Under the pieces are notes generated by a model that was given only the letters and a program-made list of their open reading frames with translations, was not told the DNA's origin and made no database searches. This document shows positions 13,243-46,173 of a DNA stretch of 57,927 nucleotides, in pieces. Origin of the DNA: an uncultured SAR86 cluster bacterium (GTDB lineage: Bacteria > Pseudomonadota > Gammaproteobacteria > Magnimaribacterales > D2472). How positions within the stretch are numbered: position 1 is the stretch's first letter; the number at the start of each line of letters is the position of its first letter. Both the position numbers and the translations under genes were made by a program. The stretch lies in NCBI GenBank assembly GCA_902528215.1, contig CABZRR010000006.1:1-57927 (forward strand), written 5' to 3'.

Positions 13243-14070
13243 ATGGAATTAATTAGAACACTTCATAAACAAATAAATGAAGATGCAAATCTTATTATAT
13301 TTTGTGAAAGTAAAATTTTATATGATCAGAAAGAAAATTCTTTTATTTTTAATTTAAAAGATTTGAATTCAAAATTACTAAATGGTCCTTATCTAGCTAT
13401 AGCAGATGCAGAAAATAACTATATTTATTCATTAGAGATAAGCTCAAGTGAAAAAATTTTGGGGATTTTTATGGACCCTGAAACAACTAACTTCGTAGAT
13501 TTGATCAACATAATAGCTTTTCTTGATTCTGATAATTTTTTATTAGCATCAAGAGCTTCAATATTAAATAATTGGAACCTTAATAATTCCTTTTGCAGCT
13601 ATTGTGGAAAAATTAACAAATTTGATCGGAAGGAGGGAGCTTTTAGGTGCGATTGTAAAAAATTATTGAACTATCCTGTAATTTCGCCATGCATCATAAC
13701 GTTGATACATGATGAGGAAAGAATTTTGCTAGGCAGAAGCAAATTTTTCCCACCTAATATGTATAGCACCTTAGCAGGCTTTATTGAAGCTGGGGAAAAT
13801 GCTGAGCAAGCTCTTAAAAGAGAAGTAGCTGAGGAAGTTAATATTAAGGTTTCGTCTATAGAGTATTATTCCTCTCAATCATGGCCATTTCCTTCTCAAC
13901 TTATGTTGGGCTTTAAATGTAAATATAAAAGTGGAGAAATTATTTTAAATGATAATGAATTAGAGGATGCAAAATGGTTCAATATTAATGAATTACCTAG
14001 TATCCCACCTCAGACTTCAATTTCTGGAAAGCTTATTCATTCTTATATCGAGGATCATTTAAAGCTCTAG
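13243..14070 (+). CDS. nudC: NADH pyrophosphatase / NAD-capped RNA hydrolase NudC
   Basis: CSYCGKIN zinc ribbon, [10 protein letters not shown], Nudix box [23 protein letters not shown]. Confidence 0.9.
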
Positions 14071-16084
14071 TCGGCTTAAAAGATGGTGTTGGAGCCGGTG
14101 ATGGTATAGGACCTGAAGGTAATGATGTGGATGATTCTGGTGCTAAAGGGGCAGAAGATTTTATATCTAATTTATTTCCATCAACCTCCTTAGTACTGTT
14201 ATTGTCATTTTTAGATTTTTTAGGCTTATTTATATTTTGCTGTGATTTCTTTGGGGATATTACTACTGGTTTTGAAGATTTTTTATTACTTCCTGATTTT
14301 TGATTAGGATTGTTGCTTCTACCTCGATTAGGATTAGATCTAGCATTTTTATTATTTTGATTTCTAATTTTATTATTTTTGGATTGACTTTTTTTGAACT
14401 TTCTTGGTTTTTGATTTTTATTAATCTTTTTCTTTTTAGGCTTATAACTACCAAAGAAAATAGATAGTGTAAGAATAGATTTTATAAAAGCAAAAAATCC
14501 GTTTTTAGTTTTTGGCATTCGAGGAGGAACAGATACTTTTACTAATGGCTTTAAAGGTCTTTTAGATGTATTTGAATCTCGCCAATCCATTGACGGTTCT
14601 GGGCTATTTGGAGTCATGTCATATGAAAATGTTTTTTTACCGGCAGCAGCTTTAACTCTTGCTACTTTGTAATAAGGTCTAGATTTATATGGATCAGCAA
14701 TTATCAAGATATTTACTTGATAGGTATTTTCAATAGCAATGATATCTCTTCTTTTTTCATTTAATAAATAACTTGAAACATCTGCTGGGACGTAAACATG
14801 TATTTCTCCAGTGTTCTCTTTTGCTGCATCTTCGCTGATTATTCGCAAAATTGATTGACCTAGAGAACGCGTTCCTCTGACTTGAACATGTTGTATATCA
14901 TAAGTTTCCTCCAATGACGGCCTCAGTCTTTGTCTTGATAGCTCTAATAAACCAAATCTGGATATACCAGCAATCTGAATTCTAGCTCGATCAGCTTGAA
15001 CTGCTGATCTGAATGTATTTTCAACTTTTTGTTGATGTTTCTCATCTTGCATATCGATAAAATCAATTACTATCAGACCACCTAAATCTCTTAGTCTCAA
15101 TTGTCTTGCAACCTCCCTAGCGGCCTCCATGTTTGTTGCAAAAGCTGTTGATTCAATATCCTTTCCTTTTGTCGATCGTGCTGAATTTACATCAATGGAC
15201 ACCATAGCCTCGGTAGGATCTATGACAATAGATCCACCAGATGGTAATGATATTTCCCGTTGAAAAGCTAATTCAATTTGACTTTCTATTTGATATCTAT
15301 TGAACAATGGTATTTCTTCATTGTAATAAATAACTTTATCTGCATGATCCGGTATAACAGACTTTGCAAAATCTAAAGCCTCGGCATGCACTGACTCATC
15401 ATCAATAAGAATTTCTTGTATATCATCTCTAAAATAATCTCTAAATACTCTCAAAATTAACTTATCATCTTTGTAGATTAAGCTTGGGCTTGGTGCATCA
15501 GCAACAGAGGATTTAATTTGCTCCCACAAATTCATTAAATAATCCAAATCCCATTTTAACTCCTCGGTAGATCGTCCAAGTCCAGCTGTCCTAACAATAA
15601 CACTCATCCCGTCAGGAATTTGCAACGCATTTAATGCATTTTTAATCTCTTCTCTCTCATCACCTGAGATTCTTCTAGAAACGCCTCCTGATTTTTCAGA
15701 ATTTGGGATCAAAACTATAAATCGTCCTGCAAGAGATATCTGGTTTGATAGAGCTGCGCCTTTAGTACCTCTTTCTTCTTTTAAAACTTGTATAAGAATC
15801 TCATCACCTTCTTTCAGAGTGCATTTTCTTCTTCCTTCAGAGTCTTTACCAAAAAACTCATTTGATAATTCTTTTAAAGGGAGGAATCCGTGTCTTTCAC
15901 TTCCAAAATTAACAAAAGCAGCATCAAGACTTGTTTCAACTCTAGAGACAGTACCTTTAAATATGCTGCCTTTATATAGAGATTGATTGTTAAATTCATT
16001 ATCAAGGTCAAAGAGTTTTGCCCCGTCAACCAACGCAACACGAAGTTCATCTGAATATGAACAATTAATTAGAATCCTTTTCAT
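14033..16084 (-). CDS. rne: Ribonuclease E (short, lysine/asparagine/serine-rich C-terminal tail)
   Basis: MKRILINCSYSDELRVALVDGAKLFDLD, S1-like domain, GGSIVIDPTEAMVSIDVNSARSTKGKDIE, GGLIVIDFIDM. Confidence 0.94.
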   Translation of the reverse strand: MKRILINCSYSDELRVALVDGAKLFDLDNEFNNQSLYKGSIFKGTVSRVETSLDAAFVNFGSERHGFLPLKELSNEFFGKDSEGRRKCTLKEGDEILIQVLKEERGTKGAALSNQISLAGRFIVLIPNSEKSGGVSRRISGDEREEIKNALNALQIPDGMSVIVRTAGLGRSTEELKWDLDYLMNLWEQIKSSVADAPSPSLIYKDDKLILRVFRDYFRDDIQEILIDDESVHAEALDFAKSVIPDHADKVIYYNEEIPLFNRYQIESQIELAFQREISLPSGGSIVIDPTEAMVSIDVNSARSTKGKDIESTAFATNMEAAREVARQLRLRDLGGLIVIDFIDMQDEKHQQKVENTFRSAVQADRARIQIAGISRFGLLELSRQRLRPSLEETYDIQHVQVRGTRSLGQSILRIISEDAAKENTGEIHVYVPADVSSYLLNEKRRDIIAIENTYQVNILIIADPYKSRPYYKVARVKAAAGKKTFSYDMTPNSPEPSMDWRDSNTSKRPLKPLVKVSVPPRMPKTKNGFFAFIKSILTLSIFFGSYKPKKKKINKNQKPRKFKKSQSKNNKIRNQNNKNARSNPNRGRSNNPNQKSGSNKKSSKPVVISPKKSQQNINKPKKSKNDNNSTKEVDGNKLDIKSSAPLAPESSTSLPSGPIPSPAPTPSFKPTRALNDPRYKNE

Positions 16085-16347: not shown

Positions 16348-17288
16348 ATGAGTGATAAAAACCTAAAAATTGGCAATGATCATGTTGGAAGACGCATTGA
16401 TAACTTTCTAATAAGTTTTTTTAGGGATTTACCTAAATCAAAGATATATAGCATGCTTAGAAAAGGGGAAATTAGAGTAAATTCTGGCCGAATTAAACCT
16501 TTATATAAATTAAAGATAAATGATGAAATAAGAATACCACCATATTTAATTGATTTAAAAAATAAAGAACCTAATTTAAAGATTCCTCCAGCTAGAATTA
16601 AAGAATTCATAAAATCAATTATTTATCAAAATGATGACTATATTTTAGTCAACAAAGATTCTGAACTAAGTGTTCATTCTGGAACAAAAAATCAATTTGG
16701 TCTTATAGATATTGCTAGAGCTAATTTTCCATTACTAGATATTGACCTTTGTCATCGAATTGATAAATCTACTTCTGGATGTGTTTTGATTGCAAAAAAT
16801 AAATTATTTTTAAGACATTTTAATAAACAGCTTATGTCTAATAAAGTAAAGAAAAAATATGAAGCTATCTTATTTGGCGTTCTCGATAAAGATGTAAAGG
16901 TAAAATCAAAAATTGATATATCGACAAAAGAGCATAACCATAAAGTTACCGAATCAAATTATGGTAAAGAAGCAATATCAAAGTTTAAAATTTTAAAAAA
17001 ATTTACTTCATTTACTTATGTTGAGATTCACATAAGTACTGCAGAATGCATCAGATTAGAGTTCAAAGCTCAAATCTTAACCACCCAATAGTAAATGATA
17101 AAAAATATGGTTTATTTGATTTAAATAAATTTATATTCTCCAAGACATCAATTGGTCGTCTCGCTTTGCATGCTGCGTCAATTTCCTTTAAAGATATAAA
17201 TAACCAAGTTGTATGCTATGAAGCGCCAAAAAACCATGAATTTGATATACTGCTCAGCGAAGTAAGTGATTTAACTATTAAATCTTGA
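16348..17288 (+). pseudogene. rluC: 23S rRNA pseudouridine synthase RluC, split by a single-base frameshift (possible sequencing error)
   Basis: ORF 16348-17091 carries GRRIDNFL...HRIDKSTSG; ORF 17046-17288 carries MHQIRVQSSNLNHPIV...GRLALHA; adding one G after 17040 gives STGRMHQIRVQ. Confidence 0.88.
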
Positions 17289-17321: not shown

Positions 17322-17534
17322 ATGGCAGTACAAAAAAGTAAAAAGACCAGATCAAAACGAGGAATGATTCGTTCTCATGATCATCTTAAAGATCTTACAT
17401 TATCTACTGATCCTGTTTCTGGAGAGAGACATCTTCGCCATCAAATGACCGCAGACGGTTTCTATAAGGGTAGACTTATTAAAGATTTAAGGAAGCCAGT
17501 TAAAGAGGAAGAGGATAACTCAACACAAGACTAA
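17322..17534 (+). CDS. rpmF: 50S ribosomal protein L32
   Basis: [20 protein letters not shown]...[15 protein letters not shown]. Confidence 0.96.
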
Positions 17535-17536
17535 GA

Positions 17537-18475
17537 ATGTCTTTTTCAGCTTTTTTAGCGTTTCCTGGTCAAGGTTCCCAACACCAATCTATGCTCTCTA
17601 GGGGCGGCATTTCAGATCTTGCTCTTTCAAGCGAGTATGTTCATGCATTAGAGTGTTGCAGTGATTTAATATCCCATGATGCTTTTAAATTAATTGAGGA
17701 GGGACCTGAAGAATTAATAAATAGGACTTCTATAACTCAGCCTATATTGATCCTTTGTTCATATCTCCATTTTAACAAGTTAGTTAATACGGTTGATATA
17801 AACCCAACATATATCGCTGGCCACTCTTTAGGTGAATATTCTGCTTTGGTCGCAGGTAATTCAATTTCAATTACTGAAGCTTTAAAATTAGTAAGAAAAA
17901 GAGGAGAGTTGATGGAGTCAGCGCCTAATGGCTCCATGTCAGCAATAATGGGCCTTGATAATAGTGTTATTAGTGAGATTTGCTTAATTGCATCTCATGG
18001 TGATAACTCTCATGTTCAATGTGCAAATTTAAACTCTCCAAATCAAACAGTTATTTCTGGTCATGATGATGCGGTCATAAGAGCTCAAGATCTTTGTATT
18101 GCAAAAGGTGCAAAACGAGCCATTAAACTAAAAGTTAGCATAGCATCTCACAGCAAGCTTATGTTATCTGCAGCAGATGAATTTCAAAAAACTCTTGAAT
18201 GTGTAACATTTAAAATGCCAGACATAAATATTATCCATAATGTATCAGTGAATTCATCAACTTCCTCTAAAGATATTCCATCTTTACTTGTTTCGCAATT
18301 GTACTCACCTGTAAGGTGGGTAGAAACATGTAATTTTGTTTCTAAATTGAATTTACCAATTATTGAATGTGGTCCTGGAAAAGTGTTATCAGGTTTATTT
18401 AAAGGAAATAAGCTTGAAAACTATTTTTCTGTAACTGATAAAGAATTTTATGAGAAAATTAGTAATTATGGATAA
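17537..18475 (+). CDS. fabD: Malonyl-CoA:ACP transacylase
   Basis: FPGQGSQ; GHSLGEYSALVA; IECGPGKVLSGL. Confidence 0.95.
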   Translation: MSFSAFLAFPGQGSQHQSMLSRGGISDLALSSEYVHALECCSDLISHDAFKLIEEGPEELINRTSITQPILILCSYLHFNKLVNTVDINPTYIAGHSLGEYSALVAGNSISITEALKLVRKRGELMESAPNGSMSAIMGLDNSVISEICLIASHGDNSHVQCANLNSPNQTVISGHDDAVIRAQDLCIAKGAKRAIKLKVSIASHSKLMLSAADEFQKTLECVTFKMPDINIIHNVSVNSSTSSKDIPSLLVSQLYSPVRWVETCNFVSKLNLPIIECGPGKVLSGLFKGNKLENYFSVTDKEFYEKISNYG

Positions 18476-38983: not shown

Positions 38984-40732
38984 ATGGATGCGCAGTTACT
39001 TACTTATATTTTTGTTGGTTCTTCTTTCGCTTTATATATTGGAATAGCTATATCGTCACGCGCATCATCAACTAATGATTTTTACATAGCAGGGAAGGGT
39101 GTTCATCCTATTGCCAATGGTATGGCAACTGCTGCAGATTGGATGTCAGCAGCCTCTTTTATTTCAATGGCAGGCCTTATAGCGTTTCTAGGTAAAGATG
39201 GATCTGTATATCTAATGGGCTGGACTGGTGGATACGTTCTATTAGCACTATTACTTGCTCCATACTTAAGAAAATTTGGTCAGTACACTGTTCCTGATTT
39301 TATTGGTACAAGATACTACTCAAACTTAGCAAGATTAGTTGCTGTTTTATGCTTAATATTTATCTCATTTACCTATGTCGCTGGTCAAATGAGAGGAGTA
39401 GGCATTGTTTTTTCTAGATTCCTTGAAGTTGATATTAACTTAGGTGTCATTATTGGAATGTGTATAGTCTTTTTCTATGCAGTCCTTGGCGGTATGAAGG
39501 GCATTACTTATACACAAGTTGCCCAGTACTGCGTTTTAATTTTTGCTTACTTAGTTCCAGCTATTTTTATTTCTATCTTGATGACTGGTAATCCAATCCC
39601 ACAGTTTGGCTTTGGGGATACTCTTGTTAACACCGATACATATTTATTAGACAAATTAGATAAGGTTACTGGTGAACTTGGATTTAATGCATACACAGAA
39701 AATACTAAAACTAAAATTGATATTTTTTGTATTACAGCTGCATTGATGTTTGGAACAGCAGGTCTTCCTCATGTCATCGTCAGATTCTTTACTGTGCCAA
39801 AAGTTAGTGATGCAAGAAAATCTGCTGGTTACGCACTAATTTTTATAGCTATTTTGTATTCAACAGCTCCAGCTGTATCAGCTTTTGCCAGAATGAATTT
39901 TATTGATTCAGTTCAAGAGGTTAACTATCAAGAGGCTCCAGGTTGGTTTAAAAATTGGGAAAATATTGGTCTGATAGCTTGGAAAGATAAAAATGGTGAT
40001 GGCTTAATTCAATACTCTGCTGGTAATGCATTAAATGAAGTGAAGCCAAAATTTAATAATAATAAAGGTTCTTCTGGAGAGAGAGCTACAGATAATAAAC
40101 CAGATATGACTAATTCAAATGAAGTTTATATCGATAGAGATATTATGGTTTTAGCGAATCCTGAAATAGCTAAATTACCACCTTGGGTTATAGCTTTGGT
40201 TGCTGCTGGAGCTTTAGCTGCAGCATTATCAACTGCAGCAGGGTTATTACTAGTTATTTCAGCTTCAGTTTCTCATGATTTACTGAAAAAAACTTTTATG
40301 CCATCAATTACTGATAAACAAGAACTATTTTATGCTCGATGTTCTGCTGCAGTTGCTATATTTATAGCTGGGCTTTTTGGTATATATCCGCCAGGCTTTG
40401 TTGCACAAGTTGTGGCATTTGCTTTTGGTTTAGCCGCTGCAACAATTTTTCCTGCATTATTTATGGGTATATTTTATAAAAGGTTGAATAAAGAAGGAGC
40501 TATAGCTGGAATGCTTGCTGGGTTAGTTGTCACATCAATTTACATTATTAATTTTAAATTTATTAATACTAATTTAAATTCTTCAGAAAATTGGTTCTTC
40601 GGAATCTCTCCAGAGGGATTTGGCTTTATAGGAATGATAATCAACTTTATTGTTGCATTTAGTGTATGTTATTTCTTTAAAAAACCACCTGATAGTATTA
40701 ATCAAATGGTTGATAATTTAAGAAATCCATAA
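38984..40732 (+). CDS. Sodium:solute symporter (SSS), VC_2705-like subfamily
   Basis: DFYIAGKGVHPIANGMATAADWMSAASFI; GTAGLPHVIVRFFTVP; AAALSTAAGLLLVISASVSHDL. Confidence 0.93.
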   Translation: MDAQLLTYIFVGSSFALYIGIAISSRASSTNDFYIAGKGVHPIANGMATAADWMSAASFISMAGLIAFLGKDGSVYLMGWTGGYVLLALLLAPYLRKFGQYTVPDFIGTRYYSNLARLVAVLCLIFISFTYVAGQMRGVGIVFSRFLEVDINLGVIIGMCIVFFYAVLGGMKGITYTQVAQYCVLIFAYLVPAIFISILMTGNPIPQFGFGDTLVNTDTYLLDKLDKVTGELGFNAYTENTKTKIDIFCITAALMFGTAGLPHVIVRFFTVPKVSDARKSAGYALIFIAILYSTAPAVSAFARMNFIDSVQEVNYQEAPGWFKNWENIGLIAWKDKNGDGLIQYSAGNALNEVKPKFNNNKGSSGERATDNKPDMTNSNEVYIDRDIMVLANPEIAKLPPWVIALVAAGALAAALSTAAGLLLVISASVSHDLLKKTFMPSITDKQELFYARCSAAVAIFIAGLFGIYPPGFVAQVVAFAFGLAAATIFPALFMGIFYKRLNKEGAIAGMLAGLVVTSIYIINFKFINTNLNSSENWFFGISPEGFGFIGMIINFIVAFSVCYFFKKPPDSINQMVDNLRNP

Positions 40733-40745
40733 GGTTATTAAAAAA

Positions 40746-44787: not shown

Positions 44788-44834
44788 AATATATGTAAGT
44801 TCGCATAATATATATTATGTTAAATTAATGTATA

Positions 44835-46139
44835 TTAATTCCACCGTATTTTAGCTATAGTAAGTGTTGAACAATAGTAAATATCATTATTGGTACCCGG
44901 TGTTAAGAACATTCCATTTGCAAGCGGCGATTTTAGGTCTATTTTTGTTATTAATTCTCCATTTTCAAGATTTATAACAACAATATGGTCACTGTTGTTT
45001 TCATAACTATTAATTATTAGTTCACCTGAATCTAAAAACACTACAGGCTGCATTGTTGGTCTTATATTGACAGACCACTCAATATTTAAGTTTTCTTGAT
45101 TAACTGCATATAGTCCACTGTTTAAACTATCCCATGCGATGCATAGATTATATTTAGGTATAGAAACTGGAGGAGCTATGATCCCTCCACCAGGTTTATT
45201 TGAAAGGGTCACATAATCAATAGTTTGATTATCTATTGATACTTTTAAAAGTTGTTGATTTCCCTTCCATAAAGCTGGTCTTTGCCAACTAAGAGTACCT
45301 GGTGGTGATGAAAATCTTCCATTTGGGTGTCTACTAAAAATAGATCGAACAGACTCAATATCACCATTGTTCATCAGCCAAATAAATCCTTCAGAAATAC
45401 AGCCATCCCATGCTAAACCATGATCACTATTTTTCTCGCGATACTTCACTGACCAATTTTTCTCAATTACTAATTGTTCTTTTTCAACTCTAATTTTAAA
45501 AATATGTTCAATACCTGGAGTGTAGATATACTCACCATTATCATCAATATCGCATGCTATTCTCCCCATAGATCCCTCTGGCAATTTCAAAGGTTTTCCA
45601 ATTAATTCTCCAGACTCTGGATTTAGTCTCGTCAATGTTGATGATGTGTCATTAGACACTCGGATATCTTTTGTAATAATACTTCCATCAGAAAGGATTA
45701 ACAGACCATTATGAGCTTGATCAATGGGCAGCTTTATTTCTTTTAAAATATTGCAGTTTTCATCCAATATATGCATGAAAGAACCATTGACGTTGATGAT
45801 AGTTCCATTAACATGAGCTGCAATGGCGCCACACCAAATGTGCTCACCACATTCCAAATTTGGGGATTCATAAATAGTCTCTAGATTGTCAGGATTTACT
45901 TTTTGAACCCATCCAAATGGCTTATCGCCAAGAAAATTTGGCATTGTTCCAGCAAGATAAAGTTCATTATCATTTCTGCAGATAAACATTACATTCCATC
46001 TATTATTTACTTTAGTAATTAAATGATGGGACTTCTCTTTGACGTTTAGTGAACCATTAAATATTTTTTGACGCCTATTACCGCCACACTCAACTGGCCA
46101 ATGGGAATTAAAGTACCCTTTGTTTAAATCAGTTTTCAT
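44835..46139 (-). CDS. Beta-propeller-like protein of unknown function
   Basis: Repeated strands with NG turns (LAGTMPNFLG, IINVNGSFMHILDENCN, LILSDGSIITKD). Confidence 0.6.
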   Translation of the reverse strand: MKTDLNKGYFNSHWPVECGGNRRQKIFNGSLNVKEKSHHLITKVNNRWNVMFICRNDNELYLAGTMPNFLGDKPFGWVQKVNPDNLETIYESPNLECGEHIWCGAIAAHVNGTIINVNGSFMHILDENCNILKEIKLPIDQAHNGLLILSDGSIITKDIRVSNDTSSTLTRLNPESGELIGKPLKLPEGSMGRIACDIDDNGEYIYTPGIEHIFKIRVEKEQLVIEKNWSVKYREKNSDHGLAWDGCISEGFIWLMNNGDIESVRSIFSRHPNGRFSSPPGTLSWQRPALWKGNQQLLKVSIDNQTIDYVTLSNKPGGGIIAPPVSIPKYNLCIAWDSLNSGLYAVNQENLNIEWSVNIRPTMQPVVFLDSGELIINSYENNSDHIVVINLENGELITKIDLKSPLANGMFLTPGTNNDIYYCSTLTIAKIRWN

Positions 46140-46173
46140 TTATGAATACATATCTAATATAAATAAATAAAAT

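Follow-up and report, generated by a model that had tools for sequence, protein, structure and literature searches.

Does this SAR86 cluster bacterium lack the 23S rRNA pseudouridine synthase RluC, or has its genome assembly lost a single base? The question is raised by two overlapping reading frames that together appear to make up one rluC gene. They lie in a stretch of 57,927 nucleotides that was analysed whole (the window), which constitutes all of contig 6 of a draft genome (G000; 1.18 Mb, 30 contigs, 81% complete). The relatives of G000 are SAR86 cluster bacteria, and many of the nearest are GORG-type AG-xxx assemblies. A preliminary description of the window had attributed the split to a one-base frameshift in the TGRxHQIRV motif of rluC, and had read it as either a very recent inactivation or a sequencing or assembly error.

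The two frames have exactly the coordinates and translations that the preliminary description gave (Table 1). The N-terminal piece comprises an S4-like N-terminus, most of a PseudoU_synth_2 domain and the catalytic motif HRIDKSTSG; it is correct through codon 231, which ends at 17040, and continues with 16 out-of-frame residues to a stop. The C-terminal piece, in the -1 frame relative to the N-terminal piece, runs from the HQIRV motif to the natural C-terminus. In a codon-level alignment of the window with 17 distinct SAR86 genomes, there is a single one-column gap, found in the window only, and it falls within the codon for the glycine of TGRxHQIRV. All 17 relatives are one base longer at this site and read TGR[M/T]HQIR[V/I/L] in one frame; in the window, the one-base deletion puts the motif out of frame with the catalytic motif. 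The full genes of the relatives have 942 bases (921 in one), as compared with 941 in the window. We conclude that the one-base deletion is real in the assembly, and that it lies in the motif to which it had been assigned.

Table 1. Coordinates in the window of the two rluC pieces, the break and neighbouring features
Feature	Coordinates	Strand	Details or basis
N-terminal rluC piece	16348..17091	+	247 aa, ends in VEIHISTAECIRLEFKAQILTTQ and a stop
C-terminal rluC piece	17046..17288	+	80 aa, starts with MHQIRVQSSNLNHPIV
Break site, gene one base short relative to all aligned relatives	17040..17041	+	codon-level alignment
TGA, last upstream stop in the frame of the C-terminal piece	17022..17024	+	sequence
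rne (ribonuclease E/G family), divergent neighbour, intact	14033..16084	-	sequence and synteny
rpmF (ribosomal protein L32-like), downstream neighbour, intact	17322..17534	+	sequence
fabD (malonyl-CoA:ACP transacylase), downstream neighbour, intact	17537..18475	+	sequence

Several lines of sequence evidence support identification of the gene as rluC, encoding a 23S rRNA pseudouridine synthase of the RluA family. Upstream lies rne, divergently oriented, and downstream are rpmF, fabD, fabG, acpP and fabF; this rne/rluC/rpmF-fab arrangement is the classical order, as in E. coli. The N-terminal piece matches PseudoU_synth_2 (PF00849) with 73.1 bits, above the Pfam cut-off of 26.8. Against TIGR00005, the pieces score 136.6 and 45.2 bits, each below the cut-off of 192.7 because of the frame break itself; the intact orthologue from the relative G021 passes with 206. 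Through this orthologue, HRIDKSTSG aligns to HRLDRDTSG of E. coli RluC, indicating that the catalytic Asp motif (HRxD..TSG) is present. The best equivalog profile for the intact G021 orthologue is that of RluC (NF008249), with 207.7 bits as compared with 119.3 for RluD; the curated NCBI cut-off of 378 is not reached, and at this score we infer the substrate positions from the E. coli RluC sites 955, 2504 and 2580. The nearest solved structures are those of E. coli RluC (PDB 1xpi and 1v9k). Hence, the name proposed in the preliminary description is backed by gene order, best equivalog profile and nearest structures, with an equivalog score below cut-off. The gene resembles E. coli RluC in gene order, best equivalog profile, nearest structures and catalytic motif; unlike E. 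coli RluC, it is one base short and is consequently divided between two ORFs.

The preliminary description had called for comparison with the closest genomes, and had described both halves as well conserved. The four closest relatives, which are syntenic with the window, encode an intact protein of 313 aa to which the N-terminal piece is 84-88% identical and the C-terminal piece 86-96% identical, and, as described above, every one of the aligned relatives is intact at the break site. Among 40 genomes of the same genus or order, open frames of 294-386 aa cover rluC in 19 same-genus and 16 same-order genomes. Only two have shorter rluC frames, both of them at contig ends. Two genus members, G011 and G017, have no rluC match. 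Since fabD and rne are missing from these two genomes as well, we attribute the missing matches to draft gaps affecting the whole neighbourhood, and reject loss of rluC in either.

Over 25 kb or more spanning the break site, the window is collinear with four relatives, and a chimeric join at that site is rejected on this ground. A frame comparison with the four syntenic relatives identified rluC as the one real gene with a split frame in this window of 57.9 kb, so we also reject the notion that the window is locally error-rich. The other ORF flagged in that comparison lies antisense to the acpP/fabF region and is a mechanical frame. Elsewhere in the window, DNA identity to G021 and G004 falls from 93% to 74% between 25591 and 32586, in a block that contains his genes, and identity to G003 holds at 94% throughout; this block looks as if homologous recombination had replaced it in one of the lineages. 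There are also two synteny break points: one at 40725-40745, where G021 and G004 have ~3.9 kb of extra sequence, and one at 44830-46160, where 44835-46139 is absent from G021, G003 and G006.

The substitution pattern provides information on the age of the break. We counted changes private to the window at codons where G021, G003 and G004 agree. Across the whole gene, there are 11 synonymous and 4 nonsynonymous private changes, with ~44 nonsynonymous changes expected in the absence of constraint. After the break, there are 3 synonymous and 0 nonsynonymous changes, with ~11.6 nonsynonymous changes expected without constraint; if the whole private branch were unconstrained, the probability of observing zero would be ~9e-6. 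Pairwise dN/dS is ~0.10-0.18 for both parts of the gene, similar to that of intact genes among themselves. A simple Poisson bound, assuming a background dN/dS of 0.05-0.15, limits the part of the private branch that was free of constraint to an upper 95% value of ~7-17%. No second lesion or decay was found on either side of the break in the rluC of the window. Judging from these private changes, which show no decay, the break is either very young or not real.

We consider it probable that the one-base deletion is an error of sequencing, amplification or assembly, and that the organism makes normal, full-length RluC. An otherwise intact and ordinary rluC would then carry a one-base deletion in the assembly, the base having most likely dropped out of this draft SAR86 genome at whole-genome amplification, sequencing or assembly. 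The intact gene in all 17 aligned relatives and the fragmented state of the draft both speak for an artefact. To gauge how often frames are broken in G000, we compared ~1.13 Mb of this genome with ~1.11 Mb of G021. Among 751 orthologous ORFs (~714 kb), there are three genuine frame splits in G000, or 0.4 per 100 kb: rluC, a threonine-synthase-like gene (at a G9 run) and an acyl-CoA dehydrogenase-like gene (at an A7 run). A fourth match was rejected as a mechanical antisense ORF. This frequency is lower than the 3.0 indels per 100 kb reported in a benchmark of the GORG single-cell workflow for marine genomes (PMC11247762), from which many of the nearest relatives come. Error alone would therefore be sufficient to account for the rluC break, since, if G000 came from a GORG-type workflow, more breaks would be predicted than are seen; a lower error rate is conceivable if G000 is instead a bulk assembly with deep coverage. 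Against an artefact, the rluC deletion is in a two-base run rather than a homopolymer, unlike the other two splits, and slippage errors arise less typically at such a site.

The two other split genes merit a brief description. The threonine-synthase-like gene (G000:C1:64993-66217; 408 aa in relatives) is read in two frames at its G9 run, where G021 has GGAGGGGG; every other complete copy in the genus is open. The acyl-CoA dehydrogenase-like gene (G000:C4:29360-30545) is split near its start, where its A7 run corresponds to A6 in G021.

The principal alternative is a real and very recent loss of function: rluC would be null in this cell or strain and retained by all of its relatives. If the cell itself carried the deletion, a ribosome starting at 16348 would stop at 17091, after 231 correct and 16 wrong residues; this product would lack motif III and the last 80 residues, and would not be expected to be a functional enzyme. 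The assembly itself shows the deletion, the site is not a homopolymer, and no second copy of RluC was found in the draft (81% complete), whose other family members are RluD-like and RluB-like; this speaks against a compensating spare RluC. Single rluC knockouts in E. coli have very small growth defects (PMC11194073); by analogy, a real null allele is biologically possible and might persist for a while. Nevertheless, every relative with the locus has kept the gene, the two genus members with no match represent draft gaps rather than losses, and private changes to the protein are as infrequent as those on branches with an intact gene. Because they are so rare, any loss would have to date from the final ~7-17% of the private branch, or from still later. 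The lack of decay and the singleton status of the break fit both an artefact and a recent loss. We regard a recent loss as a serious but somewhat doubtful explanation; an artefact is favoured, and we infer a technical rather than biological origin of the deletion. Thus, the two readings offered in the preliminary description both stand, with all aligned relatives intact, no decay and no recoding route.

We also considered whether slippage, either ribosomal or transcriptional, brings the gene back into one frame, or whether each piece is translated on its own and the two products then reassemble. The first codon of the C-terminal piece is indeed an ATG, located within the overlap with the N-terminal ORF, and zero-frame slippery heptamers (TTTAAAA/AAAAAAA) exist at 16992/16995. 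However, a slip there would lead into the frame that stops at the TGA at 17022, as would any slip upstream of that stop, including at the A7 run at 16995-17001. We found no zero-frame slippery heptamer in the usable overlap between this TGA and the stop TAG at 17089, nor in the interval from 17022 to 17091. The frame break is absent from the relatives, and there is no conserved recoding signal, because all 17 read straight through rluC in one frame. Programmed -1 frameshifting is therefore rejected, for want of both a usable slippery heptamer and conservation of the break. Internal restart at the ATG at 17046 is likewise rejected: this codon simply encodes the methionine inside TGRMHQIRV, and no clear ribosome-binding site precedes it. 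We judge recoding or split function to be very improbable. An older pseudogene, or an adaptive loss of the gene in the lineage, has in its favour only the presence of a frame break and is scarcely credible, being refuted in practice by the lack of a second lesion and by 0 nonsynonymous private changes after the break as compared with ~12 expected.

The reverse comparison, of G021 with G000, flagged three ORFs, one of which is a poly-A junction between iscA and a ferredoxin gene. In G000, at a locus outside the window (G000:C20:3686-4405), the coding sequence of an IscA-type protein continues in frame, via an A11 run, into that of a [2Fe-2S] ferredoxin; G011 has A11 at the same junction. Five relatives (G021, G004, G010, G006 and G005) have A10 followed by an in-frame TAA, and in these it is the -1 frame that is open for the ferredoxin, with no ATG, GTG or TTG ahead. 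The junction sequence is invariant, of the type GTAAAAAAAAAA(A)TAAAAATTTTACC. In seven other genus members, iscA ends in CGCGESFTI and there is a separate ferredoxin gene with its own ATG. This arrangement suggests that poly-A slippage, either transcriptional or -1 ribosomal, may join the gene pair, giving both IscA and an IscA-ferredoxin fusion. A literature search on the junction found nothing.

The rluC break itself is ordinary and nothing new in kind. With one lesion, no decay, singleton status and a draft assembly, it is like the recent single-base frameshift nulls and the indel errors of draft (single-cell or metagenome) assemblies that are already known, and we identified no difference from them. 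The poly-A junction between iscA and ferredoxin elsewhere in the genome is more interesting. For rluC, the finding is a caution for annotation: the assembly would yield two fragment proteins or a pseudogene call for a gene whose enzyme is very probably functional in the organism. Should the loss be real, this streamlined marine bacterium would be a natural rluC-null, its 23S rRNA without pseudouridines at the positions equivalent to 955, 2504 and 2580, and the allele would be just another recent null in a non-essential gene for rRNA modification.
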